Assembly: GCF_037975245.1 (NCBI RefSeq)
Contig: NC_092569.1
Coordinates: forward strand, 20,329,001 to 20,393,000
Direction of reading: 5' to 3'
Source: Apostichopus japonicus
Taxonomy: Eukaryota > Echinodermata > Holothuroidea > Aspidochirotida > Stichopodidae
Length of the DNA: 64,000 nucleotides
Position 1 is the stretch's first letter. The number at the start of each line of letters is the position of its first letter. Below are positions 10,301 to 63,738 of the stretch, piece after piece. The notes beneath the pieces were generated by a model. That model was not told the origin of the DNA and did no database searches. It worked only from the letters and a program-made list of their open reading frames with translations. The position numbers were made by a program, and so were the translations under genes.

Positions 10301-13300
10301 GAATCTTGGATGACGTAAACACGAACCCGATAGAATGTAGCGTATGTATCATAAGTAAGGTCAACATGTTGCCCAACCATTAAAAGTAAAGTTAGGGCGT
10401 TTGCAGGGAAACCGCGTAACAAGACTTCATTAAGTGTCAGTGTGTAACTCAGTGAATGCCTTCGAACTTCCAAGCGATGGTCATTATTGATGCTGACGTC
10501 ACGAGCAATTGATTATCTGAAAATTCCGTAATTGCAAACCTGTTTGGGAAAAAAAATTCGCACACGGGCCTAGGCTGGATGTAACAATGTTGTAGGACCA
10601 TAGCCATATGCCTAGGCTATCATGTGATTTTACACTGTAATTAAGGACTTCAAGCGATATTACCCTCACCCTATAATATGTTTGGTGAAGACAGTGGATC
10701 AAAGAAGATCAAACAACGAATATTTTGAATACTAATTCCGTTTCACTCCTTTCTTACATGTACTTACACATATTAGTTCCCAGTGGACCTAACACCACGC
10801 CATACGCTACGACAAAAGAGGAACAGGACGTATCTACCACCAAGGATGGTAGGCTTGTTTGTTAATTTTGTTTAGTTAAATTCAATTTATTCCCCACCTC
10901 CCCCCAGTAAAAAAAAAAAAAATGTGCAATTTACTGTTAGTTAATGAACCTAAAGGAGAAGTAAGCCTAAAGACCATTGATAACATTATACACTTACTTT
11001 CATGGTTATCATAAGATAAAGATGCAGCCCACCCCCCCCCCCCCTTGCCCCTGTTAATAATAATTTCAATCTGTTTAGAAAATATCCGTGTGTTTAATAT
11101 CGTGAGAACTGTACACTGTTTGGAACTTAAGGCAAGAGCACCCGACCATAGAACATTTTTGGTGAATACAACAGATCAAATAGAGAACGTTTGGAATACT
11201 AAATCTGTTTCACTCATTTCTACCATGACATTACTCACATTCTAGTTACCAGTGAACCTGGTTCAAGTAATGAGGGTACCTCGCTTCCGGTTGACGCCAC
11301 ATCATACACCACGATCCGTACAAACTGCCTTACGAGTAATGGCAGTGTTATACAGGTAAGAATTAGTAATAGCTATGTTTCGATAATGTTTCGATGTAAT
11401 TCAAATTTTTAAATGTTAATAGCTTTGCTATTCTTTACTTTCATTAGCCAAGTTTAAGTTTAAGAATTATTAGAATGCAACTTATTGAAAGTTTCAGTCC
11501 ACTGTTGCGTTTTACATGTGAGTAATACAAATTCGAAAAATGGATAAAGAAATGATGGGAGCCAGATGGAAACATTAAATATTTGTTCATAAACCTTTAT
11601 TTTTTAAGTTATATAATAACCTAATCGATAAGCCTGATTGTACAGTTGTTGACAATATACGGCGGATTTTAGTTTCAAGTTGTTTGTAGAATTGACGTGA
11701 CATATTTTTGGTAACAACGGAATTATAAATATATCTGCATGGAAGAATGTACCGTTGTACTCGTTGTTCTTGGTAAAGAAGACCAAGGAATAACGCAAAA
11801 CAAAGACAAAGGTTTTATCAACTGTACCATGAAACAAATATCAGTGAAGTGATTTGCGAGCTAATTTGGACGGTTATGTGTCTTCCCAGATACAGTAAAG
11901 TAAAACTGCATCTTGACTTAGCGTTTAGTGTGAAGTTAGTTTTTTTTTTTCTGAACAAGCTATATCATCTTCACGCACCCGCTCAATTTAGTCAAGTTGA
12001 TTTTACGCTGTTAGAACCATTTGAATTCATAATAAGTTATTGTGCATTTGGAATACAGACAATTGTATCCTACATAATATAATCTAAGATGATATTTTAA
12101 ACGTAACTTGGAATCTTTGGGGAGGTTTAACAAGATTGCACAATTTCTTGTACGAGTTTGGTAGAATAAAATAAAATAAAATGAATAAAGTAGCTACAAT
12201 TATTAGTATTCTTTCTCTTAACTTTTTGGAGTGTTGATTTTGGTAATGCCATATTATGATAATTACAATGCAAAAGTTTGAGAGTGGAATTCTGTTCTCT
12301 TCATGCAAATAAAATATTATTTAAGTACAAGTTTATTTGATTGGTGTGTGTGTCTGTTTGCATTGTTTCGTCTGGTATTTGAAAAAAAAGTTTTAATTAA
12401 CCATTTTTCTCTGCTGGTAAAAGCCATAAGATAGTATATTGATAGTATATTGCATACAGTGAACCACAGTTCCTTAATTATATGTTTTGTCTTTCAAATG
12501 TTTATGTCCTATATTTCCTGTCGGTTTCATTTAAATCACATTTTAACTTTTGAACTCTTATGACTTGATTTCTCTTTTGATTCAGAATGGTTCACTTCTC
12601 GTGAATGAAGACTGTACAAGGATTTCAACCTGTGATAATGGAGTAATGAACTACAATGATCTCTACCAGTGTAGCTCTGATGCGGTTTGTGAAGTCCGTA
12701 ACGATGTACGCAAATGTTACTGCATGAGTGGTTACCATGGTAATGGAGTGAATTGTACAAAACACATGACCGACTGTAAGAATTGGTACGATGCTGGGAA
12801 CACTACTAATGGTATTTATACCATCATACCAACTAACTGGAGTGGAGCATCATTTGATGTTTCCTGTAATATGACTGACGGAGGAGGATGGACGGTAAGT
12901 CTAGTATGACATCCTATAGTATAGACGATATATTGCATATGTATAATATGACTGACGGAGGAGTATGGACGGTAACTCTAGAATTACATCATATAGTATA
13001 GACGATATATTGTTTATGTATAATATGACGGACGGAGGGGGGTGGACGGTAAGTCTATAGTTTGACATCTTATTGTATAGACGATATATTGTATATGTAT
13101 AATATGACTGACGGAGGAGGATGGACGGTAAGTCTATAGTTTGACATCTTATTGTATAGACGATTGTATATTTTAATATTACTGACGGAGGATGATGGAC
13201 GGTAGGTCTAGCATGACATCCTATAGTTTACACGATATATTGTATATGTATAATATGACTGACATGGGAGGATGGACCGTAAATCTGTTATAACTGCCTT

Positions 13301-16255
13301 TAATATAGACGGTATATTTGATTTTCACTAGAGAGGGGAGGTGTGACACAAAACCCAAACAGCAAACCTAATCCACCTAAACAAACCGCACCCCAACACA
13401 ACCGCACCCAGACACCACCACAACCCCGTATCTGAGCACTGTCTACAGTTTTACAGTGTAAACATGTTCCTCTTTGCGTTATACCTTTTCACATTACTCT
13501 TTAGGTTGTGAAAAGGCAAACTCATTTTCTGTTTCTCATTTTAATGCATTGCATAATTTACGCTAACACTTTCCTTTACATCCTTTGACCACATAACCTG
13601 TGGCGTATTACGTAAATAAGTAATGCGCTATAAAAAATCATACTATTATATCCTATTTACACATGTTTAAGGTTGTGGGCATTTTTGACCTTATTACGTC
13701 ATAACTCTAGTCTATTTTGTCATTTTGATATATACAACAATAGGCCAATGAGAATGGGGGAGAAGTTGCTGACATATTTAGTTTAGACAACCACATGCAT
13801 GTAATTTAGTTGCTCGCTTCAAAATTTGAGAATAAATAACATCTCTTTAAAAGAAACTGGTATAACAGTGTTAGTATAATATTTTATCTCCCCATCAATC
13901 AGATATTCCATCGTCGCGTTGATGGTTCTGTTGATTTCAATCGGACCTGGATCAGCTACAAAGAAGGCTTTGGTGATGTCGGTCATGAGTTTTGGTTGGG
14001 TAACGATAAACTGTATTACCTCACCAATCAAGGCAATTATCAACTCCGGGTTGATTTTGTGATCAGAGATGGTGATCCATTCTATGCTAAATTTGACCGG
14101 TTCCGTATCAACAATGAAAGTGACAACTATCGACTGTCTAGAATTGGAGAGTACAGCGGAAATGCAGGTTTGTGAACAGTTAGGCTATTGTGTGATTAAA
14201 CTTTATAACAGACAATCAATGCTTAAACGTCGTAAAACAAATTTCTCTCTCTTCTCTGAAATTAATTCGATGTAATCATGATTTAAAATCCAATCGGTTT
14301 AATTATAGTTGTCGTTGCTATAATTAAAATGTCAACGTGAAACCCTTCTGATTAGAATGATAATTTCAGGGCGATGGCAACAAGCCCGCCCTAGAAACTC
14401 GAGGGGGACTAATATGATGATATGTTGTATTCAAACCTGTGATTGGTGGACAATAGAACACCTCTAAAATAATAAGTAGCACATCGCTCAAACGAGCAAT
14501 TCCCAAGTAAAGCCAAACAATCGATCAAAAAAATCGATAACCAAATATTATGAAACACATATTTTCTTAACTTGTTTGAAATAATTGAGAGTGAAAAAGT
14601 TTAGTGAGCACGTTCCAGTGATAAATGTAATGGGACTTAAAGGAGGTTACATGGTACAATAAATATATTACAGACTGTAATATATACTGACACTATCCCT
14701 GATAATTTTCACGATGCATGCGCTACAGTAGTTTTGTTACCAATATGATTTTGTGGAAATATCCGTTTGAACTTACTTATGTATGTTTCTACAGACAATA
14801 CACAGATATACGCTAGTGCTGAAGGGACAATAAGTCAACAATGTCACAATATCCGTTGTAGCAGGATACGTCTTAATTTAAAATCACTCTCGTTGGACGA
14901 ATCCAGATCAATTTAAAGTTTTATGCTGAGCATATAAAAGCAATCCACGGAAGCTTTGAAAGCACATCCAATATTATATTAATATTAAGAAGAAGACAAG
15001 AGGAAACCATATGTTTCGGTTGACGTACGAGACACGTTAAGATCGTAGGATAATATGGACAGAAGGAGAAGTATATTCATTATAATATTAATAATAATTT
15101 GTGAATAGAATTTTTAAGTAAACTGGTAATATTTGGATGTCAAATATGTTTTGATTAAGTCTGGCAATGTATTTCTTTATACGTAAGCTGCATGTAATCA
15201 TTCCATGGTAATACACGCTATAATAATAATAATTAAATATTTCACACAAGTTTTATCAAAGATAGTGATTTTTTTTTTACATTGATTTCGCTTACGTAAA
15301 TTATGAGTAACTCCTTACCTGTATAAAGTTTGCATTTTATTACCACTTTTATGTTTATAATTTTATTTTGTTTTTATTGATGGCATTAAATAAAAATGAT
15401 ATTTCCGTATTTTAGACAGTAATCTTAAAAAGTATACAGACCAAGCGTTTAGCAGTTTGTCGGCATATTGAAAAATTAAAACAATGTAAAATAACAATGT
15501 CTTTTGGACCATATTCAAGTTTACTGTTAGTAACTCAAATTCAGGTGAAGCGGCAAGGAACTCAATTGGGGAGTGGGAAGGGGGGGGGGGTGGGAGTGGG
15601 TTTTCAAAACCTTTCAGGGATAGAGAGGCATGTGACATTGGGAAAACCACGTCCGTGAGAAAGACCCTATGTTAATTTTATTTGTTGTTTTTCAACGGCA
15701 CATTACTTTCATTAAAATTGTCTTTAAGTTGTCAAAATAGAGTATTTTCACAAAATTGGGAGGAAGTGAGAAATTCATCCCCAGCACTGTGCCCGGATCT
15801 TCTTCACTTTTATTTTGTTTTTATCTTTTATCTTCAAGCATTATAATATGATAATAGAGATTGGATAGTTGATAATATGATATCTCGTGATGTTTTGAGA
15901 TAATTTCCCAACTATGATGCATATTACTCTATCACGACGTTGATTGTTTATGGTTTTATTTTCAACTCAATATGCATTACCATAATTAAAATGCGTTCAT
16001 GGTATTGTTTAATATTTAGGTGGTGCTGGAGGTTTAAAGAATCGCTTGAATTATTCCTTCAGTACCTCGGACAAGAACAATGGAGGATGTTCGGATGACT
16101 ACCATTGTGGCTGGTGGTTCCGGGATTGTAATTTACGTTGCCTCAATGGTGACTATCATGCAGCGCGGAATGTAAGGTCAGGTGTATCCTGGTATAGAGA
16201 GTCTGGTTCCTATGATAATATCAAGTATACTGAGATGAAGATAAGGCCTGTCTAG
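5533..16255 (+). CDS. FReD gene 1: secreted EGF-fibrinogen-related protein, seven exons
   Basis: Predicted exons: 5533-5587, 7950-8036, 10777-10848, 11246-11355, 12586-12894, 13903-14167, 16020-16255. Phases 1,1,1,0,0,1 join to 378 codons including TAG (377 aa), with GT/AG at all borders. Order: signal peptide, short N-terminal segment with one Cys, Thr/Ser-rich linkers, EGF-like domain with six Cys and a GYHGNGVNC ending, then a FReD running from DCKNWYDAG to EMKIRPV. FReD family knowledge suggests an extracellular, often oligomeric lectin that binds sugars or acetyl groups in innate immunity; the ligand is unknown. Intron 2 contains a TIR transposon and intron 5 a splice-donor minisatellite. 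The gene appears intact. Exon choice is from homology among the three copies and splice signals, without transcripts. Confidence 0.85.
7246..7322. repeat. CA/TA compound microsatellite
   Basis: A CA run interrupted by CCCA passes directly into a TA run, at the left end of the private insertion in gene 1. It is absent from the matching intron of gene 2. Confidence 0.9.
7249..7635. mobile_element. 387-bp insertion in gene 1 intron 1 flanked by 25-bp direct repeats
   Basis: Perfect 25-bp repeats beginning ATGATGCGTG lie at 7224-7248 and 7636-7660. Gene 2 has the sequence once, at 27500-27524, so that is the empty site. The insert starts with CA and TA microsatellite runs, then about 310 bp of unrecognised DNA. 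The long target duplication fits a retroposition-like event, but no diagnostic protein or tail is visible. Confidence 0.65.
7950..8036 (+). CDS. FReD gene 1 exon 2: N-terminal segment with single Cys
   Basis: The acceptor TTGAACAG and donor GAAG|GTAAGA bound 87 nt, phase 1 to 1. The product is 29 residues starting [12 protein letters not shown], polar, with one Cys and an acidic/basic stretch. The lone Cys has no obvious partner and may link chains. Gene 2 has the same exon; gene 3 does not. Confidence 0.75.
8953..9016 (+). pseudogene. Degenerate duplicate of linker exon 4, unit 1
   Basis: After a CTAG acceptor, the sequence TTACAAGTGCACTTGGTTC resembles exon 4 at 11246 (TTACCAGTGAACCTGGTTC) through to ACCACG. 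No usable donor follows and the Cys-coding end is missing, so it is probably a dead exon. The same relic is at 28824-28887. Confidence 0.55.
9208..10561. mobile_element. 1.35-kb TIR DNA transposon, non-autonomous, in gene 1 intron 2
   Basis: Perfect 32-bp terminal inverted repeats (outer end GCGAATTTTTTTTCCCAAAC; inner bases GGTTTGCAATT) are flanked by the 9-bp direct repeat ACACGGGCC at 9199-9207 and 10562-10570. Unit 3 has an uninterrupted site at about 54602-54610. No transposase recognised; the small ORFs inside are unconvincing. A 9-bp duplication suits Mutator-like or Merlin-like elements, but the superfamily is not established. Confidence 0.85.
10777..10848 (+). CDS. FReD gene 1 exon 3: Thr/Ser-rich linker
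   Basis: 72 nt, phase 1 to 1, acceptor ATTAG and donor GATG|GTAGGC. Encodes [19 protein letters not shown] plus STTKD, a likely O-glycosylated spacer. Compared with the 105-nt exons in gene 3 it lacks 33 nt, an in-frame deletion of 11 codons. Confidence 0.75.
11246..11355 (+). CDS. FReD gene 1 exon 4: linker with Cys before EGF domain
   Basis: 110 nt, phase 1 to 0, acceptor TTCTAG and donor CAG|GTAAGA. Encodes a Ser/Thr-rich stretch ([20 protein letters not shown]), then [15 protein letters not shown]. The Cys may pair with the first Cys of exon 5. Confidence 0.82.
12586..12894 (+). CDS. FReD gene 1 exon 5: EGF-like domain and FReD N-terminus
   Basis: 309 nt, phase 0 to 0, acceptor GATTCAG and donor ACG|GTAAGT. 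It encodes [16 protein letters not shown], a six-Cys EGF-like module with a [15 protein letters not shown] core, then DCKNWYDAG, NGIYTI and [12 protein letters not shown], the conserved start of a fibrinogen C-terminal domain. Failure to splice here adds VSLV and a stop (TGA 12907-12909). The 3' end of the exon is the seed of the downstream minisatellite. Confidence 0.93.
12870..13290 (+). repeat. 77-bp minisatellite from exon 5 end plus splice donor, gene 1
   Basis: About six copies including the exon. Each has AATATGACTGACGGAGGA, a GGATGGACGGTAAGT-type donor and an AT-rich tail with TATAGACGATATATTG. Three of the five intronic copies lack the exact GGTAAGT: GGTAACT near 12968, GGTAGGT near 13196, CGTAAAT near 13273. 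Confidence 0.9.
13903..14167 (+). CDS. FReD gene 1 exon 6: central FReD
   Basis: 265 nt, phase 0 to 1, acceptor CAATCAG and donor GCAG|GTTTGT. The reading [52 protein letters not shown] follows the FReD core in order. It begins with ATA (Ile) where copies 2 and 3 have GTA (Val). Confidence 0.93.
16020..16255 (+). CDS. FReD gene 1 exon 7: C-terminal FReD and stop
   Basis: Acceptor TTTAG, phase 1, stop TAG 16253-16255. Encodes [44 protein letters not shown] and YTEMKIRPV. The canonical FReD calcium loop has a D-x-D; here it reads DKN. Four Cys are present, against two usual in this part. Confidence 0.92.
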
Positions 16256-16910: not shown

Positions 16911-18318
16911 CCTACTTAGAAATATAAATCATTCAAGTACAGATGCTTATTGGGCAAAGTAAATTAGAATAATTGTTAAATTGGACAGGGTTGTCAGTTG
17001 GTATATTAAATAATACATCGGTTATTACTAATTGATTGGTAAAATACTGCCTTTGTTTTAAATTGTAACTGACATACTTTCTCACCAGGATTTAAACATC
17101 TACTCTGGCTGTATTGTAACAAGCTATAAATAAATTCAAAGCAGGAAAAGTTATCGTTGTTAACAATCTACATTAATGATTATAAAACAGTCTATGTACT
17201 ATCATTCTTTATAAATCTTCTTTGTCGATCCAGAAATTATTGCAAATTTATTCGAAAAATATCCGCGAAGAAGAATACAACAGAAAAGAAAATCAAGAAA
17301 GAGAGATAAATATTAGTATATATTACGATTTGTTTTGCGACGAAATTAGTAATAGTTTCAAAATTGTAGGCAAAATCGGATAATGCCGGACGAAGAATTG
17401 GCTAAGATTGTATTTATTCACTATTATTCTTCAATAATGGTAAAGGCGAAGCAAAACCATATCAATTATTTATTTGTAGTTAATATCCATCCCATTTCCC
17501 CTTCCCTTATCATCGTGTACAATTATCATTGAGTATAATTTCACTTTAATCTATTTCAAATGATTATAGGAAGAAAACATTCAAAATCATTTTTTGTAAA
17601 TATAGTTATAAATATTATTTGGAGATTCGATAAATATATGTAGTCACTCAAAAGTCAGCTTATTTCTTGTTATTGCCCTGTTTTCGTCGTTTTTTCTGTC
17701 TCCATAATGTCTCTAAAATGTCTTCTATAGTTTGGACCAATTCCAAGTTTAACAACCACCATCGTATGTTCAGATATATTAAATGGATTACCCATACCTA
17801 ATATGCCAATTTACTTAATCCCGACTCCCCAATCTGCTAATTAATATAATCCGTCATCGATATGTCACTTTAGAAACCTGTTGTAGTTTCCATCGTTAAC
17901 GATTATGTCATGATTCACCCCCCCCCCCCTCTGTCCTCCCCCAGGAATCAGATTCCCTACATCGGAACCAGCTTCAACGGTCCCACGGTCACACTTGCTC
18001 CTTTATCAGTTTATTAAATCCTGGATCCGTCTCAGATGACAATAGGTTCTTTCACTGACTGATGACGGTTGAGTCATTCTCGAGGAAACGATGTGTGATA
18101 TTCTGTCTGTGTATGTATGTATGTATGGGGGGGGGGGGTTGGGGTGTGGAGTGGAGTGGTGGGGAGATTCGAGCGTTAGGCTGCGTTATCTGACTGAGTA
18201 TCATTGCCAGGCTAGTAAAATGAATATGAACATCAGAAAAGACACTCAGGTAAAAATATTTGACATTATTCTATTTATGAGATTTCTCGAAATGAACGAA
18301 ATATACGGAATGAAACGG
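16911..18318. other. 3' flank of gene 1, no gene recognised
   Basis: AT-rich. Contains a short frame at 17383 starting MPDEELAKIV, repeated at 39222 and 62429. All three copies keep the ATG but vary in length and sequence. Also a C tract near 17918 and a G tract near 18127. Confidence 0.5.
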
Positions 18319-18505
18319 TATGAAAGGGTATGAACGGGATGAACGGGATGAATGGGATGAGCGGGATGAGCGGGATGAGCGGGATGAGCGGGATGAGCGG
18401 GATGAACGGGATGAACGGGATGAACAGGATGAGCTGGATGCACGAGATGATCGGGATGACCGGGAACGAACGAACGAACGAACGAACGAACAAACGATCG
18501 AACGA
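18319..18505. repeat. 9-bp GGATGAGCG minisatellite and GAAC microsatellite, unit 1
   Basis: Units of GGGATGAAC and GGGATGAGC repeat in register with codons, giving artificial MSG/MNG repeat frames, then GAAC runs. The same composite array is at 40140-40701 and 63389-63738. Confidence 0.9.
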
Positions 18506-20374
18506 ATTAAATTGAATTGAATGGAATCAAATTAAAACCAAGGAATGAAATCCATCGAATTGAAATCTGTTGAAATTCATCGACGAAATCGATGAAAAAT
18601 CGGTATATCGATGAAATCGATAACCCATGTTGAGTAAGGTGCAGAGGTATACTATTATATTTAATTTGTTCATATTTGGCAAACCATTAATGTCACAATA
18701 ATCCAAAAATATCCCAAACTAGAAATTTTACTATAAAAAATAAATTTAAAAGTTTACTTACTTTGTCAGTGAACGATCAACATCCTTTTAATGAGTAGGT
18801 CAAAGATCGTTTCCGGTCAACAATAATGAAATTATAAAAACTAATTACACCCGCTATTTAAACTAAGTACAGTATCATATAACTTTTTTTATGATTTTAT
18901 GTATGAAGCCTGTATGAATACCATATTTAATATAACTGTTTCTTTTATCTTGTTTGTTTCTTTGTTATACTTTCTTTCATTGGATGTCAAAAAAAAAAGA
19001 ACTGCACTAAAAGAACGAATGTGAAAACCGAGAATACTCTCCCATAACGTTCACTCTGGTTTAGTAGTGTAAATGTAATACGTAGATTGGAGTCGATCTT
19101 AATCTTCACATCAAACACCGATAAATATGTTTAACCTTAATAATTATTCGTGCAATTTACAGTGTGCAGCATTGCAAGTTACACTACCAACGAAAACAAA
19201 GCACAGGCCAGTATATGTTACTCGTACGTACTTTCATAGATGCGTAGTATTTTACTTGCTTACTAAGATCGTTAATATGAATACCAGAATTCCGAGCTAT
19301 TTGAAAGAAATGCAATAAAACCAGGATTATTCGAACTTCAAACTGTTAGGCAACGAATCCGAAACACTAGTAAATTTCTGCAGAAGAGCGCGACGTGATT
19401 TGAACTGTGTCATACGGTAAACGTTGTAGTGTGATAGTGATGTAGTGATATAGTGATCTATTTCCGCACCGCCACTTATAAACAACAGCTCATTATATGT
19501 TGGATGTTATCACAGTAAGCGTCAGCCCCGAACGAGTGTAGTCAATAATCTAACACTGGAAGCGTATATGATTTCTAGAAGGATACGTCTATAGATTTAC
19601 GTAAACATTGGATGGTTTGGTATGTATTGAATGATCTTAGCACTAACCATACGCTATTGTTTAGGTACCATCACCATACATAAAGCATGTTGTATGCTTA
19701 TCGTATTCAATTTACGCTCTTTACATTGTTTGTGATTTAATTTGTTGATTTCATTAGTAATATCAATGTCATAATACAGTACGCCATATTCTCAAATCTA
19801 GGCATAGTTGACTTCAAACGACTAACGAGAAAACAGCAATATCTGCCAGTGTATATTTGTTTGTGTATCGTCACTTTATCCTGTATAACGAAGTACGCGA
19901 AAATTATTTTTTAATAATCCAATGGATTGTGTAGTTTATAGGCAGCTGATTTAAGTTCCTTTGAAAACAAACTGAGGAGAGAGTCTCAGTTTGGTTGATT
20001 AATCTTTAGTCACGTTTAACTAGTATTGACTGTCTTGGTATAGTTTTGATCAATGCTACTGTCATCCAATGGAAGAAGGAACGAAGGTGTACTGAAGATA
20101 TTCCAGAAAAGCTGAGCTTTTTACATACAAGCGATTACACAAGGTCACCGTGAAGGAAGAAAAGTTGAGGGATGACCATCGAAAGACGACCACGTAAGTA
20201 TGCATTCAAAATGATGCATCTCGCGTCAGTATGGACAGCGGTGGATGTGGACATAACCGTTTACATGCCCTACTACTCCCCTGTTTAAAAATGCTTCAAA
20301 GGTGCCTCAAATAAGCTCATGCTTAGCATTGGATTGAACATGTACCTACAGTACAGATATGCGTCACTTTTTAG
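18506..20374. other. Inter-gene DNA between arrays of unit 1 and unit 2
   Basis: No gene recognised. The matching DNA in unit 2 is 40702-44770 including the LINE. The LINE insertion site is empty here, at about 20026-20034. Confidence 0.55.
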
Positions 20375-32000: not shown

Positions 32001-35000
32001 TACCATGACATTACTCACATTCTAGTTACCAGTGAACCTGGTTCAAGTAATGAGGGTACCTCGCTTCCGGTTGACGCCACATCATACACCACGATCCGTA
32101 CAAACTGCCTTACGAGTAATGGCAGTGTTATTCAGGTAAGAATTAGTAATAGCTATGTTTCGATAATGTTTCGATGTAGTTCAAATTTTTAAATGTTAAT
32201 AGCTTTGCTATTCTTTACTTTCATTAGCCAAGTTTAATTTAAGAATTATTAGAATGCAACTTATTGAAAGTTTCAGTCCACTGTTGCGTTTTACATGTGA
32301 GTAATACAAATTCGAAAAATGGATAAAGAAATGATGGGAGCCAGATGGAAACATTAAATATTTGTTCATTAACCTTTATTTTCAAGTTATATAATAACCT
32401 AATCGATAAGCCTGATTGTACAGTTGTTGACAATATACGGCAGATTTTGGTTTCAAGTTGTTTGTAGAATTGACGTGACATATTTTTTTGTTAACAACGG
32501 AAATATCATTATATCTGCTTAGAAAAATGTACCGTTGCACTCGTTGTTCTTGGTAAAGAAGACACAGAAAACACGTACAACAAAGACAAAGGTTTTATCA
32601 ACTGTACCATGAAACAAATATCAGTGAAGTGATTTGCGAGCTAATTTGGACCGTTATGTGTCTACCCAGATACAGTAAAGTAAAACTGCATCTTGACTTA
32701 GCGATTAGTGTGAAGTTAGTCTTTTTCTGAACAAGCTATATCATCTTCACGCAACCGCTCAATTTAGTCAAGTTGATTTCACGCTGTTAGAACCATTTGA
32801 ATTTATAATAAGTTTTTGTGCATTTGGAATACAGACAATTGTATCCTACATAATTTAATCTAAGATGATATTTTAAACCTAACTTGGAATCTTTAAAGAG
32901 GTTTAACAAGATTGCACAATTTCTTGTACGAGTTTGGTAGAATAAAATAAAATTAAATCAATAAAGTAGCTATAATTATTAGTATTCTTTCTCTTAACTT
33001 TTTGGAGTGTTGATTTTGGTTATGCCATATTATGATAATTACAATGCAAAATAAAGCTTGAGGGTGGAATTCTGTTCTCTTCTTGCAAATAAAATATTAT
33101 TTAAGTACAAGTTTATTTGAATGGTGTGTGTGTCTGTTTGCATTGTTTCGTCTTGTATTTGAAAAAAAAAAGTTTTAATTAACCATTTCTCTCTGCTGGT
33201 ACAAGATTGAAGATAGTTTATTGATAGTATATTGCATACAGTGAACCACAGATCCCTAATTATATGTTTTGTCTTTCAAATGTTTATGTCCTATATTTCC
33301 TGTCGGTTTCATTTAAATCACATTTTAACTTTTGAACTCTTATGACTTGATTTCTCTTTTGATTCAGAATGGTTCACTTCTCGTGAATGAAGACTGTACA
33401 AGGATTTCAACCTGTGATAACGGAGTGATGAACTACAATGATCTCTACCAGTGTAGCTCTGATGCGGTTTGTGAAGTCCGTAACGATGTACGCAAATGTT
33501 ACTGCATGAGTGGTTACCATGGTAATGGAGTGAATTGTACAAAACACATGGCCGACTGTAAGTATTGGTACGATGCTGGAAACACTACTAATGGTATTTA
33601 TACCATCAAACCAACTAACTGGAGTGGAGCATCATTTGATGTTTCCTGTAATATGACTGACGGAGGAGGATGGACGGTAAGTCTAGTATGACATCCTATA
33701 GTATAGATGATATATTGTATATGTATAATATGACTGACGGAGGAAGATGGACGGTAAGTCTAGTATGACATCCTTTAGTATATACGATATATAGCATATG
33801 TATTATATGACTGACAGAGGAGGATGGACGGTAAGTCTAGTATGACATCATATAGTATATACGATATATAGTATATGTATAATATGACTGACGGAGGTGG
33901 ATGGACGGTAAGTCTAGTATGACATCATATAGTATATACGATATATAGTATATGTATAATATGACTGACGGAGGTGGATGGACGGTAAGTCTAGTATGAC
34001 ATCCTATAGTATAGACGATGTATTGTATGTATAATATGACTGACAGAGGAGTATGGACGGTAAGTCTACTTTGACATCCTATAGTATAGACGATATATTG
34101 TATATGTATGGTATGACTGACGGAGGAGGATGAACGGTAAGTCTAGTATGACATCCTATAGTATATACGATATATAGTATATGTATAATATGACTGACGG
34201 GGAGGATGGACGGTAAGTCTATAGTATGACATCCTATACTATAGACGATATATTGTTTATGTATAATATGGCGGACGGAGGAGGATGGACGGTAAGTCTA
34301 TAGTATGACATCTTATTGTATAGACGATATATTGTATATGTATAATATGACTGACGGAGGAGTATGGACGGTAAGTCTAGTATGACATCATGTAGTATAT
34401 ACGATATATTGTATATATTTAATATGACTGACGGAGGAGGATGGGCGGTACGTCCAGTATGACATCCTATATTATAGACGATACATTGTATAATATGACT
34501 GACGGAGCAGGATGGACGGTAAATCTATTATAACTGCCTTTAGTATAGACGGTATATTTGATTTTCACTAGAGAGGGGAGGTGTGACACTAAACCCAAAC
34601 AGCAACCCTATTCCACTCAAACAAACCCCACCCCAACACAACCGCACCCAGACACCACCACAACCCCGTATATGCTCACCGTCTACAGTTTTACAGTGTA
34701 AAACTGTTCCTCTTTGCGTTATGATTTTCTACATTACTCATTGAGGTTGTAAAAAGGCATAATCATTTTCTTTTTTCATTTTAATTCATTGCATAATTTA
34801 CACTTACACTTTCCTTTACATCCTTTGACCACATAACCTGTGCAGTGGCGGAGCGTCCAAACAGTCAGCTGGAGCGGATGCCCCCCCCCCCCCCCCCCTG
34901 ACGGACTCAAATGGACTGCGGGCGACCTTTTCAGCTCTTAACCACTTTTTACTTATTCACGATTATTGACTTTTTTATTGCGCTCTCATCTATAAATATT

Positions 35001-38000
35001 GACATTTGTCACATTTTGTTGGTCTAATTTGGAGATGACACCTATTTAATTCTTCGTTTATCTGCAAATTAGCCAGGCCCGAAAAGGGTCATTTCCTGCG
35101 ATCTAGGGATTGTCTTTACTTAAAACAAATGTGTACGCTACGCGCCAATCTGTGGTGGCGCTCCGCTTAGATAGGGTTGAAAGCGCCCCTTCAGACCATT
35201 CTCGCCCCCCCCCCCTGACCAATACCCCTAGCTCCGCCACTGAACCTGTGGCGTTTTACGTTGATGAGTAATGCACTATAAGCGATCAGAATATGATATC
35301 CTATTTACACATGTGTAAGGTTGTGGGCATTTTTGACCTTATTACGTCATAGCTCACGTAGGAACCACATTTATTTTGTCATTTTAACATATACAACAAT
35401 GGGCCATATGCAGTTTTCACCTCTTGGAGTTTCACCTCTGACCTTGTGCGCTAAGATGAACGTCTTTTCTTTTCCGGATTGAGAATGGGGGAGAAGTTGC
35501 TGACATCTTTAATTTAGACAACCACATGCATGTAATTTAGTTGCTCGCTTCAATATTTGAGAATAAATAACTTTTCTTTTAAAAGAAACTGGTTTTACAG
35601 TTTCAGTATTATATTTCTCTCCCCCCATCAATCAGGTATTCCAACGTCGCGTTAATGGTTCTGTTGATTTCAATCGGACCTGGATCAGCTACAAAGGAGG
35701 CTTTGGTGATGTCAGTCATGAGTTTTGGTTGGGTAACGAAAAACTGTATCACCTCACCAACCAAGGCAATTATCAACTCCGGGTTGACTTTGTGAACAGA
35801 AGTGGTAATCCATTCTATGCTAAATTTGACCGGTTCCGTATCAACAATGAAAGTGACAACTATCGACTGTCTAGAATTGGAAAATACAGCGGAAATGCAG
35901 GTTTGTGAACAGTTAGGCTATTGTGTGATTAGATAATCAATGCTCAAACGTCGTAAAACAAATATACTCATGTCGGCCATGTTAATGATGCATTCGTGGT
36001 GATAATCAAAGAGTAATATATATTAGTATAACCGTATATATTCTATAGCGTCGGTGAGGTAACACCGATCGGTAGAGGGCACATACGGTATTTACAGGCT
36101 GGGATAATGATTTATTGATTTATAAAGATAGTCTATGGAGCCTAGCAAAAATAAGTGACTGCGATATAATCGATTAAGCAAATTCAAGTTGATTTTCCCA
36201 TGATTTATTTCTCTCCTTCTTCTCTGAAATTAATACGATGTAATCAGAATTTAAATCCAATCAGTTAAAGTAAAGTTGTCGTTGCCTTTATTAAAATATC
36301 AATGTGAAACCCTTCTGATTAGAATGATAATGTCGGGGCAATGGCAACAAGCCCGCCCTAGAAACTCAAGGGGGACTAACATGATGATACGATGTATTCA
36401 AACCTGTGATTGGTGGACAAAAGAACACCTCTAAAATAATAAGTATTAATTAGCACATCGCTCAAGCGAGCTATTCCTAAGTAAAGCCAAACAATCGATC
36501 AAAAAAAATCGATAAAAAAATAAATAATGTAAAAGATATTATTTTCTTAACTTGTTCGAAATATTCGGGCGTGAACAAGTTAGTGAGCACGTTCCAGTGA
36601 TAAATGTAATGGGGCTTAAAGGAGCTTACATGGTACATTAAATATATTACAGACTGCAATACATACTGACACTATCCCTGATAATTTTCACGATACATTC
36701 GCTACAGTAGTTTTGTTACCAATATGATTTTGTGGAAATATCCGTTTGAACTTACTTATGTATGTTTCTACAGACCATACACAGATATACGCTAATGCTG
36801 AAGGGACAATAAGTCAACAATGTTACAATATCCGTTGAAGCAGGATACGTCTTAATATAAAATCACTCTCGTAGGACGAATCCAGATCAATTTAGAGTTT
36901 TATACTAAGCCTATGATAGCAATTAAATCTACCGCCACATCTTTACAGTCCACGGAAGCTTTGAAGGCGCTCCCAATCTTATGTTAATATTAAGAAGAAG
37001 AAAAGAGGAAACCATATGTTTCGGTTGACGTACGTGACACGTTAAGATCGTAGGATAATATAGACAGATGGAGAAGTATATTCATTATAATATAAATAAT
37101 AATTTGTGAATAGAATCTTTCAATATACTGGTAATATTTGTATGTCGAACATGTTTGGACTAAGTCTGGCAATTTATTTCTGTATACGTAAGCTGCAAGT
37201 TGTCATACCATGGTAATACACGTTATAATAATAATAATTAAATATTTCACACAAGTTTTATCAAAGATAGTGATTTGTTTACATTGATTTCGCTTACGTA
37301 AATTATGAGTAACTCCTTACCCGTATAAAGTTTGCATTTTATTATCACTTTTATGTTTATAATTTTATTTTGTTTTTTTGTTTTAATTGATGGCATTAAA
37401 TAAAAATAATCTTTCCGTATTTTAGACAGTAATCTTAAAAAGTATACAGACCAAGCGTTTAGCAGTTTGTCGGCATATTAAAAATTAAAACAATGTTAAA
37501 TAACAATGTCTTTTGGACCATATTCAAGTTTACTGTTAGTAACTCAAATGCAGGTTTAGCGGGAAGAAATTCAATTTTGGAGTGGGAAGAAGGGGGGGGG
37601 GGTCGGAGTGCAAAACCTTCCAGGGACAGAGAGGCATGTGACATTGGGAAAATCACGTCCGTGAGAAAGAACCTATGTCAATTTTAGTTTTTGTTTTTCA
37701 ACGGCACATTATTTGTCATTAAAATTGTAATTAAGTTGTCAAAATTGAGTATTTTCACAAACATTGGAGGGGTGAGAGATTCATCCCCAGCCGTGCGCCC
37801 GGAACCTCTTCCCTGTAATTTTGTTTTATCTTTGATCTTCACACATTATAATATGATAATAGAGATTGGATAGTTGATAATTCGATAAATCGTGATGTTT
37901 TGAGATAATTTCCCAACTATGATGCATACTACTTTATCACGACATTGATTTTTTGTTTTACTTTCAACTCAATATACATTACTATAATTAAATGCTTACG

Positions 38001-38256
38001 TTTTATTGTTTAATCTTCAGGTGGTTCTGGTGGTTTCGGGAGTCGCTTGAATTATTCCTTCAGTACCTCGGACAAGAACAATGGAGGATGTTCGGATGAC
38101 TACCATTGTGGCTGGTGGTTCCGGGAATGTAGGACACGTTCCCTCAACGGTGACTATCATGCAGCACTGAATGTAAGGTCAGGTGTATCCTGGTATAGAC
38201 AGTCTGATTACTATGATAATATCGAGTATACTGAGATGAAGATAAAGCCTGTCTAG
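25740..38256 (+). CDS. FReD gene 2: secreted EGF-fibrinogen-related protein, seven exons
   Basis: Predicted exons: 25740-25794, 27814-27900, 31562-31633, 32026-32135, 33368-33676, 35636-35900, 38021-38256, with lengths and phases identical to gene 1 (377 aa). Domain order is the same: signal peptide, short one-Cys segment, linkers, EGF-like domain, FReD. Intron 2 carries the TIR element with a nested LINE endonuclease fragment; intron 5 carries the splice-donor minisatellite and a hAT-like element. In the last exon the Cys in RCLNG of genes 1 and 3 is Ser (RSLNG), leaving one FReD Cys possibly unpaired. No stop or frameshift seen. The role as a secreted lectin-like recognition protein is inferred from the family. 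Confidence 0.85.
25972..26058. repeat. TA dinucleotide microsatellite in gene 2 intron 1
   Basis: A nearly pure TA run of about 87 bp. Gene 1 has only a short GTATAC at the same place (about 5761). Confidence 0.95.
27814..27900 (+). CDS. FReD gene 2 exon 2: N-terminal segment with single Cys
   Basis: 87 nt, phase 1 to 1, with GT/AG borders. Differs from gene 1 at Y to H (RGHFKC) and A to T (HTTNE); the lone Cys is conserved. Confidence 0.75.
28824..28887 (+). pseudogene. Degenerate duplicate of linker exon 4, unit 2
   Basis: Same relic as 8953-9016: acceptor-like TCTAG, exon 4-like sequence, no donor. Confidence 0.55.
29661..30694 (+). mobile_element. LINE (non-LTR retrotransposon) 5' fragment nested in TIR element
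   Basis: About 1034 bp replacing the 107 bp seen in unit 1 (9796-9902). It contains the endonuclease part of a non-LTR retrotransposon only: no reverse transcriptase, no 3' tail, no target duplication. It may have arrived by recombination or repair rather than target-primed insertion. Confidence 0.85.
29767..30636 (+). pseudogene. LINE ORF2 endonuclease domain, truncated and frameshifted
   Basis: About 289 codons from a GTG; the true start is uncertain. An APE-type endonuclease is recognised from CSLWNARSI (res. 62-70), LTETWL (91-96, catalytic Glu), ITGDFNFH (206-213), HTLDLIIT (247-254) and a DHH near 273-275. The family normally continues into reverse transcriptase. Here the frame ends at TGA 30634-30636, while the next frame stays open past that point ([16 protein letters not shown]), showing a +1 frameshift near 30626. 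Probably CR1/Rex-like by motif style; clade not proven. Inactive. Confidence 0.85.
31562..31633 (+). CDS. FReD gene 2 exon 3: Thr/Ser-rich linker
   Basis: 72 nt, phase 1 to 1, donor GATG|GTAGGC. Same as gene 1 except GTA to ATA (Val to Ile) near the end. Confidence 0.75.
32026..32135 (+). CDS. FReD gene 2 exon 4: linker with Cys before EGF domain
   Basis: 110 nt, phase 1 to 0. Ser/Thr-rich stretch, then [15 protein letters not shown]; donor CAG|GTAAGA. Confidence 0.82.
33368..33676 (+). CDS. FReD gene 2 exon 5: EGF-like domain and FReD N-terminus
   Basis: 309 nt, phase 0 to 0. EGF-like module with six Cys plus NEDC upstream, then [17 protein letters not shown] and [11 protein letters not shown]. 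Donor ACG|GTAAGT heads the minisatellite. Confidence 0.93.
33652..34525 (+). repeat. 77-bp minisatellite from exon 5 end plus splice donor, gene 2
   Basis: About twelve copies including the exon, most keeping GGATGGACGGTAAGTCTA. Two adjacent units near 33850-34000 are almost identical, indicating recent expansion. The last units are decayed (GGTACGT near 34447, GGTAAAT near 34516). Confidence 0.92.
34843..35242. mobile_element. 400-bp hAT-like MITE in gene 2 intron 5
   Basis: Perfect 12-bp terminal inverted repeats CAGTGGCGGAGC and GCTCCGCCACTG, with the 8-bp target duplication AACCTGTG at 34835-34842 and 35243-35250. Gene 1 has one AACCTGTG (13595-13602), an empty site. An 8-bp duplication and CAGTG terminus fit hAT. 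No coding capacity; C tracts inside. Confidence 0.92.
35636..35900 (+). CDS. FReD gene 2 exon 6: central FReD
   Basis: 265 nt, phase 0 to 1. [45 protein letters not shown]. No stop. Confidence 0.93.
38021..38256 (+). CDS. FReD gene 2 exon 7: C-terminal FReD and stop
   Basis: Acceptor CTTCAG, phase 1, stop TAG 38254-38256. [20 protein letters not shown] shows Ser in place of the fourth Cys. Ends YTEMKIKPV. Confidence 0.92.
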
Positions 38257-40139: not shown

Positions 40140-40395
40140 AGCTGCTCTCATTCTCGAAATGAACGAAATATACGGAATGAAACGGAATGAAACGAAATGA
40201 AACGGAATGAAACGGAATGAACGGGATGAGCGGGATGAGCGGGATGAGCGGGATGAGCGGGATGAGCGGGATGAGCGGGATGAACGAACGAAGGAACGAA
40301 CGAACGAAGGAACGAACGAAGGAACGAAGGAACGAAGGAACTAACGAACTAACGAACAAACGAACTAACGAACTAACGAACGAACGAATTAAATT
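40140..40395. repeat. GGATGAGCG minisatellite and GAAC/GAAGG array, unit 2
   Basis: Six or seven GGGATGAGC units, then GAAC, GAAGG and CTAACGAA variants. Confidence 0.9.
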
Positions 40396-40507
40396 GAATT
40401 GAATGAAATTAAACCAAGAAATGAAATCAATGGATTTGAAATATATTGAAATTGAATGGGATGAACGGATAAACGGATGAACGGACGGAATAAACGGACG
40501 GACGAAA

Positions 40508-40701
40508 GAACGAACGAACGAACGAACGAACGAACGAACGAACGAACGAACGAACGAACGAACGAACGAACGAACGAACGAACGAACGAACGAACGAACG
40601 AACGAACGAACGAACGAACGAACGAACGAACGAACGAACGAACGAACGAACGAACGAACGAACGAACGAACGAACGAACGAACGAACGAACGAACGAACG
40701 A
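40508..40701. repeat. Pure GAAC microsatellite, unit 2
   Basis: About 48 uninterrupted GAAC units, much longer than in unit 1 (18464-18505). It makes an artificial NERT repeat frame. Confidence 0.95.
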
Positions 40702-42245
40702 ATTAAATTGAATGGAATGGAATGGAATGGAATGAAATTAAAACCAAGAAATGAAATCCATCGATTTTAAATCTGTTGAAATTCACCGACGAAATCGATG
40801 AAAAATCGGTATATCGATGAAATCGGTAACCCATGTTGAATAAGGTGCATAGGTATACTATTATCTTTAATGTGTTCATATTTTGCAAACCATTAATATC
40901 ACAATAATCCAAAAATATCCAAAACTAGAAATTTTATTATCAAAAATATATATTTTTTGTCAGTGAACGATCAATATCCTTTTAATGAGAAGGTCAAAGA
41001 TCGTTTCTGGTCAACAATAATGAAATTATAAAAACTGTTTACACCCGCTATTTAAACGAAGTACAGTATCATATAACTTTTTTATGATTTTATGTATGAA
41101 GCCTTTATGAATACTCTATATGAAATATCTGTTTTTTTTTATCTTGTTTGTTTCTTTGTTACTTTCTTTCATTGTATGTCAAAAAAAGGGAACTGCAATA
41201 AAAGTAACAAGTGTTACAACCGCGAATATTCTCTCATAACGTTCACTTGGTTTATTAGTGTAAATGTAATACGTAGATAGAAGTCCATCTGAATCTTCTA
41301 ACTTGTATCTATCACTTTCAAAACAAACACCAATACATAATTTAACCTTAATAATTATTCGTGCAATTACAGTGTGCAGCATTGCAAGTTACAGTACCAA
41401 CGAAAACAAAGCACAGGCCAATATATGTTACTCGTACGTACGTTCATAGATGCCCTAGTATTTTCATTTGCTTGCTAAGATCGTTAATATGAATACCAGA
41501 ATACCGAGCTATTTGTAAGAAATGCAATAAAACCAGGATTATTCGAACTTTGAACTGTTAGGCAACGAATCTGAAATACGCGTAACTCTCTGCAGAAGAG
41601 CGTGACGTGTTTAAACTGTGCCATACGGTAAACGTTGTAGTGTGATAGTTATATAGTGATATAGTGATCTATTTCCGCACCGTCACTAGTAAACAACAGC
41701 TCATTATATGTTGGATGTTATTACAAGAAGCGTCAGCCCCGAATGATTGTAGTCAACAATCTAATACTGAGAGCGTATAGTCTGCATGGTTTGTACAAGG
41801 ATTCGTTTATAGATTAACGTATACATTGGATGGTTTGGTATAGAATTGAATGATCTTAGCACTAACCATACGCTATTGTTTAGGTACTATCACCATTCAT
41901 AAACCATGTTGTATGCTTATTGTATTCAATTTACGCTCTTTTCATTTTTTTGTGATTTAATTTGTTGATTTCATTAGTAATATCAATGTCAAAATACAGT
42001 ACGCCATATTCTCAAATCTAGGCATAGTTGACCTCAAACGACTTACGAGAAAACAGCAATATCTGCCAGTGTATAATTGTTTGTGTATCCTCATTTTATC
42101 CTGAATAACGAAGTATGCGAAAATCCATTTTAATAATCCAATGGAATGCGTAGTTTATAGGAAGCTGATTTAAGTTCCTTTGAAAACAACTGAGGACAGA
42201 GTCTCAGTTTGGTTGATTGAATCTTTAGTCACGTTAAACTAGTAT
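40702..42245. other. Inter-gene DNA, unit 2, no gene recognised
   Basis: Collinear with 18506-20025 of unit 1. Only short frames not preserved between copies. Confidence 0.55.
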
Positions 42246-51068: not shown

Positions 51069-61255
<10,187 letters not shown>

Positions 61256-61960: not shown

Positions 61961-63388
61961 ACTTAGAAATATAAATCATTCAAGTACAGATGCTTATTGG
62001 GCAAAGTAAATTAGAATAATTGTTAAATTGGACAGGGTTGTCAGTTGGTATATTAAATACATCGGTTATTACTAATTGATTGGTAAAATACTGCCTTTGT
62101 TTTAAATTGTAACTGACATAATTTCTCACCAAGATTTCATCATCTACTCTGGCTGTATTGAAACAAACTATAAATAAATTCAAAGCAGGAGAAGTTATCG
62201 TTGTTAACAATATACATTAATGATTATAAAACAGTCTATGTATTATCATTCTTTATAAATCTTCTTTGTCGATCCAGAAATTATCGCAAATTTATTCGAC
62301 AAATATCCGCGAAGAAGAATACAACAGAAAAGAACATCAAGCAGGGGAGCTTGATATTAGTATATATTACGTAACTTGTTGTGCGACGAAATTAGTAACA
62401 GTCTCAAAATTGTAGGCAAAATCGGATAATGCCGGACGAAGAATTGGCTAAGATTGTATGTATTCGCTATTATTCTTCAATAATGGAAAAGACGAAGCAA
62501 AACCAGATAAATTATTTATTTGTAGTTAATATCCATCCGCTTTCCCTTCCCTTATCATCGTGTTCAATAATCATTGAGTATCATTTCACTTTAATCTATT
62601 ACAAATGGTTATAGAAAGAAAAAAATTAAGATCATTTCATAAATATATTTATAAATGTAATTTGGAGATTCGATGAATATATGTAGTCACTCAAAAGTCT
62701 TGTTATTGCCCTCTCTTCGTCGTTCTTTCTGTCTCCATTATGTCTCCAAAATCTCTTCTATCGTTTTAAAAAATTCCAGATTAACCAACCCCTATCGTGC
62801 AACAGATATATTAAATGGATTATCCATCCGTAATATGCCCATTTACTTAATTCCCGACTCCCAAATCTGATAATTTACATAATCCGTCCTCGATATATCA
62901 CTTTAGAAACCTTTTGTAGTTTCCATGGTTATAGATGCTGTCATGATTCACCCCCCCCCCCTGTCCTCCCCCAGGAATCAGCATCGGAATCAGTTTCCCT
63001 ATATCGGAACCAGCTTCAACGGCACCACGGTCACACTTCCTCCTTTATCAGTTTATAAAATCCTGGATCCGTCTCAGATGACAATAGGTTCTGTCACTGA
63101 CTTATGACGGTTGAGTCATTCTCGAGGAAAAAAATGTGTGATATTCTGTCTGTATATGTATGGGGGAGGGGGGGGGGGGTGGCGGGGTGATTCGAGCGTT
63201 AGGCTGCGTTATCTAACTGATTTAGTATCATTGCCAGGCTACTAAAATGAATATGAACATCACAAATGACACTCAGGTAAATATATTTGACATGATTATA
63301 TTTATGGGAGTTGCTCTCATTCTCGAAATGAACGAAAGATACGGAATGAAACGTTATGAGACGGTATGAAACGAAATGAAACGGAATG
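61961..63388. other. 3' flank of gene 3, no gene recognised
   Basis: Contains the short MPDEELAKIV frame (62429-62614), a C tract near 62951 and a G tract near 63160. Confidence 0.5.
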
Positions 63389-63738
63389 AAACGGTATGAA
63401 CGGGATGAACGTGATGCACGTGTTGAACGGGATGAGCGGGATGAGCGGGATTAGAGGGATGAGCGAGATGAACGGGATGAGCGGGATGAACGGGATGAAC
63501 GGATGAACGGAATGAGCGGGATGAACGGGATGAGCGGGATGAACGGGATGAACGGGATGAACGGGATGAACGGATGAACGGAATGAGCGGGATGAACGGG
63601 ATGAGCGGGATGCACGGCATGAGCGGGATGAGCGGGATGAGCGGGATTAACGGGATGAACGAGATGAGCGGGATGAGCGAGATGAACGGGATGAGCGGGA
63701 TGAACGGGATGAACGGATGAACGGCATGAGCGGCATAA
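63389..63738. repeat. GGATGAGCG minisatellite, unit 3 (longest, no GAAC end)
   Basis: About 350 bp of GGGATGAGC/GGGATGAAC units with a higher-order block (GGATGAACGGATGAACGGAA) recurring. Units 1 and 2 end this array with GAAC runs and then shared DNA; here neither follows. Confidence 0.9.

Follow-up and report, generated by a model that had tools for sequence, protein, structure and literature searches.

An exon end and its splice donor repeated as an intronic minisatellite in a subfamily of EGF-FReD genes of Apostichopus japonicus

Results

The window, by which we mean the whole 64,000-nucleotide stretch of Apostichopus japonicus DNA that was analysed (contig C9, 20329001-20393000), contains three tandem copies of a segment of about 20-25 kb, each with one EGF-FReD gene on the + strand. 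The features are given below in window positions. Exon numbers 5 and 6 are those of an earlier note on this DNA. No upstream exons were found; a Pfam search of 10 of the 69 listed open reading frames of the window yielded only matches below the cut-offs.

12586..12894, + strand: gene 1 exon with the EGF-like part and the FReD start ("exon 5"); acceptor ttttgattcag, donor gtaagt
12867..13314, + strand: gene 1 array, 6 units, the last partial (TRF, wrap-around alignment)
12867..12943, + strand: gene 1 unit 1; the exon proper stops at 12894, with the true donor at 12895
12895..12909, + strand: gene 1 read-through codons V S L V stop
12944..13314, + strand: gene 1 decoy units 2-6, whose GTs lie at 12972, 13049, 13128, 13202 and 13279
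13903..14167, + strand: gene 1 next FReD exon ("exon 6")
16020..16255, + strand: gene 1 last FReD exon, including the stop
33368..33676, + strand: gene 2 homologous exon
33649..34558, + strand: gene 2 array, 12 units; unit 1 is the true exon end, true donor 33677
35636..35900, + strand: gene 2 next FReD exon
38021..38256, + strand: gene 2 last FReD exon, including the stop
56631..56939, + strand: gene 3 homologous exon
56912..58284, + strand: gene 3 array, 18 units; unit 1 is the true exon end, true donor 56940
59361..59625, + strand: gene 3 next FReD exon
61020..61255, + strand: gene 3 last FReD exon, including the stop

The array-bearing exon of gene 1 comprises 103 codons and is in phase 0 at both ends. 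Alone, it matches Fibrinogen_C (2.2e-5) and EGF_3 (1.8e-6; 28.5 bits, exactly the cut-off); the joined exons score 26.4 bits for EGF_3 against the cut-off of 28.5 and match the full Fibrinogen_C domain (PF00147) at 3e-53 over residues 62-268 (profile 3-220 of 221), and the best solved relatives are tenascin-R and ficolin-1. From the array-bearing exon to the stop, 269 codons are open in each of the three genes. By the Nei-Gojobori method, the window paralogs differ in this exon by 3-4 synonymous changes at ~61 sites and 3-6 nonsynonymous changes at ~248 sites, and in the less constrained next exon by 3-5 at 55 and 9-13 at 209, respectively; over the whole stretch, genes 1 and 3 give a pN/pS of 0.73. 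Residue 10 of the exon's product is Ser in gene 3 in place of Cys (12613-12615 versus 56658-56660). The introns that follow the array-bearing exon measure 1008, 1959 and 2421 nt in genes 1 to 3. Relatives sought in prokaryote genomes, viral contigs and phages were not found, and an Rfam search gave no match.

Structure of the 77-bp arrays

The exon ends in AAT ATG ACT GAC GGA GGA GGA TGG ACG, followed by gtaagt; in gene 1 it closes at 12894 (...GGA GGA TGG ACG), with gtaagt from 12895. TRF detects a 77-bp period at 12867-13286 (5.5 copies, score 567), and wrap-around alignment, which was used to delimit units, carries the gene 1 array on to 13314 through a sixth unit that is partial and diverged. 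The array starts 28 bases 5′ of the exon-intron junction, and its first unit is the true exon end with the true donor, as reading frame, FReD homology and splice phases show in 3 of 3 window genes; every unit contains the exon's final 27 coding bases along with the donor, those after the first being intronic. A junction-spanning 30-mer, allowed three mismatches or fewer, has 34 matches in the window (0.00 expected), always within the three arrays and on the + strand, the remaining 2 of the 36 units being too diverged to match. The repeat search, the alignment and the 30-mer thus agree with the earlier note that the unit holds the exon's last codons and the donor. The decoys are GT donors, as the note describes, and gene 1 has one true donor and five decoys. 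Two of these five are identical to the true nine-base donor and three are altered (GTAACT, GTAGGT, and C followed by GTAAAT). The first units of genes 1-3 are the most central among the 36 window units. Read-through past the true donor adds VSLV and a stop that ends 15 nt into the intron in all three window genes, as had been foreseen.

Past the array, the introns of genes 2 and 3 differ by 2.3% and that of gene 1 by 11-12% from both (13315-13902 versus 34559-35635 and 58285-59360). This part of the intron is ~490 nt longer in genes 2 and 3, and likeness among the copies is mosaic. The shift in similarity at the array within the window made the array a candidate recombination boundary, but switches occur elsewhere too. 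In 12 near paralogs, moreover, the correlation of block distances is low across the array (0.29) and also between the two blocks beyond it (0.22), against 0.57-0.70 for upstream blocks, and the candidate was rejected. The window holds other repeats as well. A ~16-bp repeat (CACCCAAACACAACCG) lies just 3′ of each array (13374-13419, 34613-34659 and 58339-58385), and all three copies contain 9-mer arrays of the ACGGGATGA type (18305-18506, 40155-40738 and 63341-63733), two of which are adjoined by GAAC tetranucleotides (~102 copies at 40282-40702).

Occurrence across the genome

The genome searched comprises 671,581,487 bases in 35 contigs. A DNA search returned 184 matches, with 39 of 174 candidates scored, and those matches that were listed were sorted manually into 39 places. 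In a second search, with the protein sequence of the exon, 150 of 1178 candidates were scored, and from these 20 further paralogs, mostly outside the known array places, were picked by hand. All counts of arrays and paralogs are therefore lower bounds. In the sequence fetched, the array starts at a FReD exon end in 38 of the 39 places, one of them (L029) with an insertion that splits unit 1 just past the donor. The remaining place, L032, has an array without an exon in the 1.5 kb fetched; the array-bearing exon L038 lies ~4 kb upstream of it, and L032 may belong to the intron of L038 as a second array block. The 20 further paralogs comprise 3 with an array and 17 without. At least 41 array-bearing exons, on contigs C2, C7, C9, C11, C15 and C18, were found among those examined, and the set of array-bearing genes is a whole subfamily that extends beyond the three paralogs of the window. 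The EGF-FReD family itself is very large, the 150 scored exon matches of 1178 candidates lying mostly on C9.

The 23 arrays that were dissected contain from 5 to ~65 units each, 348 in total, 325 of them decoys. In all 23 the array consensus differs from that of the window at 0-1 of 77 bases; protein identity to the window exon is only 53-74% in 11 of these loci, and the exon just upstream of the array is 67-75% identical in the 11 distant loci. The read-through stop ends at +15 in 23 of 23 arrays, preceded by VSLV in 19; among three extra array exons, L045 has VCL and a stop, and in L050 the stop comes five codons later. A second array block, farther along the same intron or close by, was seen at L026, L019, L023, L024 and L032. 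L009 (C9:19991700-19999600), ~350 kb away, differs by 0-0.8% from gene 1 when compared with window positions 11500-14200 and also has 6 units, and L013 and L014 are identical across five blocks.

Founder of the unit and distribution of the arrays

The 17 array-free paralogs reveal what preceded the repeat. Each has closely similar final codons, once only, followed by a GT donor (GTAAGT in 16 of the 17), and none has a unit within the first ~330 nt of the intron, whose first 49 bases match the intron part of the unit at just 14-23 of 49 positions. The exon end and donor, which array-free paralogs possess once and ahead of an unrelated intron, therefore preceded the array. The repeated codons are a conserved FReD motif, the exon end is the founder of the repeat unit, as the earlier note had supposed, and the unit's 49 intron bases belong only to array-bearing genes.

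For 58 genes a tree was built from 93 bases of the exon, with unit 1 excluded; it was midpoint-rooted and drawn without support tests, on a sample biased towards array genes, which had been found by array search. It places 45 genes in one group, 41 with the array and 4 without (L046, L047, L051 and L053), while the 13 remaining genes, all array-free, fall outside that group. Array state requires 4 changes on this tree, compared with a mean of 15.0 and a minimum of 10 in 500 shuffles. Because array-bearing genes cluster on this short exon tree, a single origin with a few losses is the likeliest history.

The likeness of the consensus among loci hinted that the exon end was being homogenised between genes. 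At unchanged residues, however, codons are conserved in 1216 of 1536 cases upstream and in 367 of 462 cases in unit 1 (66 comparisons among 12 genes); since conservation is the same in both, the array does not homogenise the exon end. Near-identical consensus sequences need no exchange, because the majority of independently mutating units gives back the ancestral unit.

Conservation and strength of the decoy donors

The 33 window decoys all retain GT, with GTAAGT in 27 and the full nine-mer in 25, and 8 still encode NMTDGGGWT. Unit 1 shows no change in 84 exon letters, and the decoys 55 in 924; the 54 decoy changes in the 27 coding columns fall at codon positions 1, 2 and 3 in the numbers 20, 19 and 15. 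In all 23 arrays, GT is present in 309 of 323 decoys and GTAAGT in 252 of 325. Taken by itself, the window shows a lower rate of change in the decoy donor (6 of 198) than in the rest of the unit's intron (122 of 1388). Change is as low as in the donor in 9 of 77 hexamer windows, and among the decoys 23 of 77 columns and 6 of 77 pairs of neighbouring columns do not vary. When 22 arrays were taken together, the near-copy L009 being left out, selection on the decoy donors was not found: 33 of 77 hexamer windows and 13 of 77 dinucleotides show no more change than the donor. Selection on the decoy donors, considered as a sign of function, was set aside on these grounds, many other windows of the unit being equally unchanged, and there is no detectable constraint on the decoys.

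Pairing with U1 was scored with the 11-base human U1 end. The true donor of L011 (GTTAGT) pairs more weakly than 9 of its 10 decoys and that of L016 (GTAACT) more weakly than all 4 of its own, and both genes retain a full-length next exon; four other arrays have 1-6 decoys that slightly exceed the true donor in strength. RNA structure that would single out the first donor was dropped as a candidate, since the predicted unpaired probability of its nine-mer ranks 3rd of 6, 3rd of 12 and 13th of 18 in genes 1-3.

Discussion

In our judgement it is probable that the first donor is the dominant one, that the array is old and tolerated, and that the remainder of it is ordinary intron. Recognition would start at the exon's own acceptor and treat the exon as a whole, the nearest adequate donor, and hence the 5′-most, being chosen, and the rest of the array would behave as plain intron; exon definition at the array-bearing exon is assumed here. 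In minigenes with two identical donors and flanking introns of 365 nt, the upstream donor is reported to be used exclusively under exon definition, while short introns favour the downstream one (PMC9225289). The introns of the window genes, at 1008 to 2421 nt, are long compared with the minigene case, so that use of the first donor would be expected provided that the upstream intron is long as well. In most arrays neither donor strength nor predicted accessibility can decide the choice of donor. The full-length next exon in L011 and L016 despite a weaker true donor points to position over strength, although these two could equally be mis-spliced genes. Among human 5′ splice-site competitions, before matching for strength, ~60% favour the downstream donor (PMC9225289). 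An engineered duplicate donor 18 nt downstream of the original in C. elegans is described as used to some extent, less than the original (PMC8865678). Both reports weigh against the reading favoured here. So do the low rate of change of the decoy donor within the window and the retention of the array by 41 of the 45 sampled members of the array group, which a pure passenger would not need, albeit in a biased sample.

In 23 of 23 arrays the second donor lies 75-80 nt downstream of the first, and the read-through stop 60-65 nt before it. This distance exceeds the 50-55 nt of the rule that usually holds for nonsense-mediated decay. Occasional use of a decoy would bring in a stop ~15 nt past the true exon end and give a product that is probably degraded; with that stop 60-65 nt upstream of the next junction, decay of the RNA is a likelier outcome than a stable protein with the EGF part only. 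The suggestion in the earlier note of an isoform switch to an EGF protein without a functional FReD is not supported, as the decoy donors in 22 arrays are no more conserved than the rest of the unit and the stop suits decay. Where that note left open whether the array regulates isoforms or is tolerated, tolerance is the half better backed; a regulatory interpretation is possible but unsupported, and we infer that the array has no function.

The chief alternative is that the array acts as a brake on splicing, decoys being used in a fixed or regulated share of transcripts and unit number tuning FReD output gene by gene; every transcript so spliced would contain an early stop and be degraded or give an EGF-only protein. 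Retention of GTAAGT in most decoys, the stop at +15 in every dissected array with the next donor 60-65 nt on, the range of 5-65 units and the persistence of the array in 41 of 45 sampled group members are all consistent with such a brake, and in humans a longer VNTR in ABCA7 goes with lower expression (PMC5954066). The decoy donors, however, show no excess conservation, the sampling favoured array genes, and retention of an ABCA7 unit is given as ~2% and independent of length, length affecting skipping of the next exon instead (PMC5954066). We therefore regard such a brake as unlikely. Still less credence attaches to the stronger proposal that the array is kept because it works, with donor number setting, in each gene of a large EGF-FReD subfamily, the share of transcripts sent to decay or to an EGF-only product; if true, the fast-changing length of a minisatellite would tune the output of dozens of recognition-type genes.

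A different account of the distribution holds that the array was copied between paralogs by gene conversion through the conserved exon end, without recent common ancestry. It would explain why the consensus differs at 0-1 of 77 bases in all 23 loci although 11 distant ones have just 67-75% identity in the exon upstream, as well as the presence of arrays on six contigs, the differing array states of L047 and L048 only ~17 kb apart, and the mosaic paralogs. Against it, 4 changes suffice to place array state on the exon tree, a consensus of independently mutating units recovers the ancestor without exchange, codons in unit 1 are no more conserved than those upstream, and block distances show no clean switch at the array. 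Copying of this kind is improbable.

Array units might also serve as small additional exons, each running from an AG in the unit to the following donor and lengthening the FReD, which we consider very improbable. Eleven of the 33 window decoy units, all in genes 2 and 3, do contain a candidate of 30-45 nt that is open and in frame, but these 11 are drawn from 99 AG-to-donor candidates in the window arrays, of which 47 contain a stop and 41 shift the frame, and their pyrimidine tracts are weak: the pyrimidine fraction before array AGs is at most 0.67 (0.44-0.56 for the 11), compared with 0.72-0.83 at true acceptors. Two of the 11 in-frame open stretches lie in the gene 2 array at 34015-34059 and 33872-33907 (45 and 36 nt). 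Insertion of a pre-existing satellite or mobile element at the exon end, which the frequency of other tandem arrays in the window and the exonless L032 might suggest, is hardly credible, given that 38 of 39 places start at a FReD exon end (only one of them, L029, interrupted) and that paralogs lacking the array have a single copy of this exon end.

Returning to the old, tolerated array, we propose that a tandem duplication over the exon-intron boundary in one EGF-FReD gene would have given rise to the minisatellite, that this founder gene would have expanded into a subfamily whose descendants received the array along with the gene, and that later gain, loss and mutation of units, copy by copy, may have produced the present 5 to ~65 units.

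The earlier note called the spread of a real splice site by minisatellite growth unusual, a view tempered by two donor-containing VNTRs in humans (PMC5954066, PMC2630376). In ABCA7 a 25-bp VNTR in intron 18 supplies, with its first GT, the canonical exon 18 donor, and every unit opens with a donor-like GT; when the second donor is used, one unit is retained, which happens in ~2% of transcripts, independently of VNTR length, with a frameshift and premature stop; longer VNTRs are associated with more skipping of exon 19 and lower expression (PMC5954066). As in the arrays described here, the canonical donor is thus the first GT of the array, but the ABCA7 unit is C-rich, starts with the donor, reaches up to ~427 units and occurs in one gene, whereas the present unit is 77 bp long, includes 27 coding bases and occurs across a gene subfamily. 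The CBS VNTR c.1444_1467+7(16_21) has, to judge from its name, a 31-bp unit of 24 coding and 7 intron bases (PMC2630376), so that exon end and donor are repeated together, 16-21 times; it differs in its shorter unit, its confinement to a single gene and its variation in length between people. In CBS c.844_845ins68, also human, a splice junction is duplicated and one of the two copies is strongly preferred (PMC2630376), for which reason the duplication is tolerated, a parallel to the present case. The intron gained by potato RdRp likewise arose by tandem duplication over an intron-exon boundary (PMC4974935), with the difference that a new intron was made there, while the copies here were absorbed into an existing one. 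VNTRs in TERT (VNTR6-1; PMC11830802) and MIR137 (PMC6692358) are described as affecting splicing, without repetition of a native exon end in those accounts. A literature search of titles and abstract openings found no FReD gene with such an array. The anatomy is of the ABCA7 and CBS kind, to which the present genes add inheritance within a whole subfamily.

Near-copies of an exon's own donor follow at least 41 related exons, with 4-64 decoys in each of the 23 dissected arrays. The printed arrays of the same kind that were found belong to single human genes, while the present one was apparently passed on in dozens of gene duplications. These arrays constitute a natural duplicated-donor experiment, in which array-free paralogs serve as controls and two genes have a true donor that looks weaker than its decoys, and the array-bearing genes would let the position, strength and number of equal donors be compared as rules of splice-site selection.
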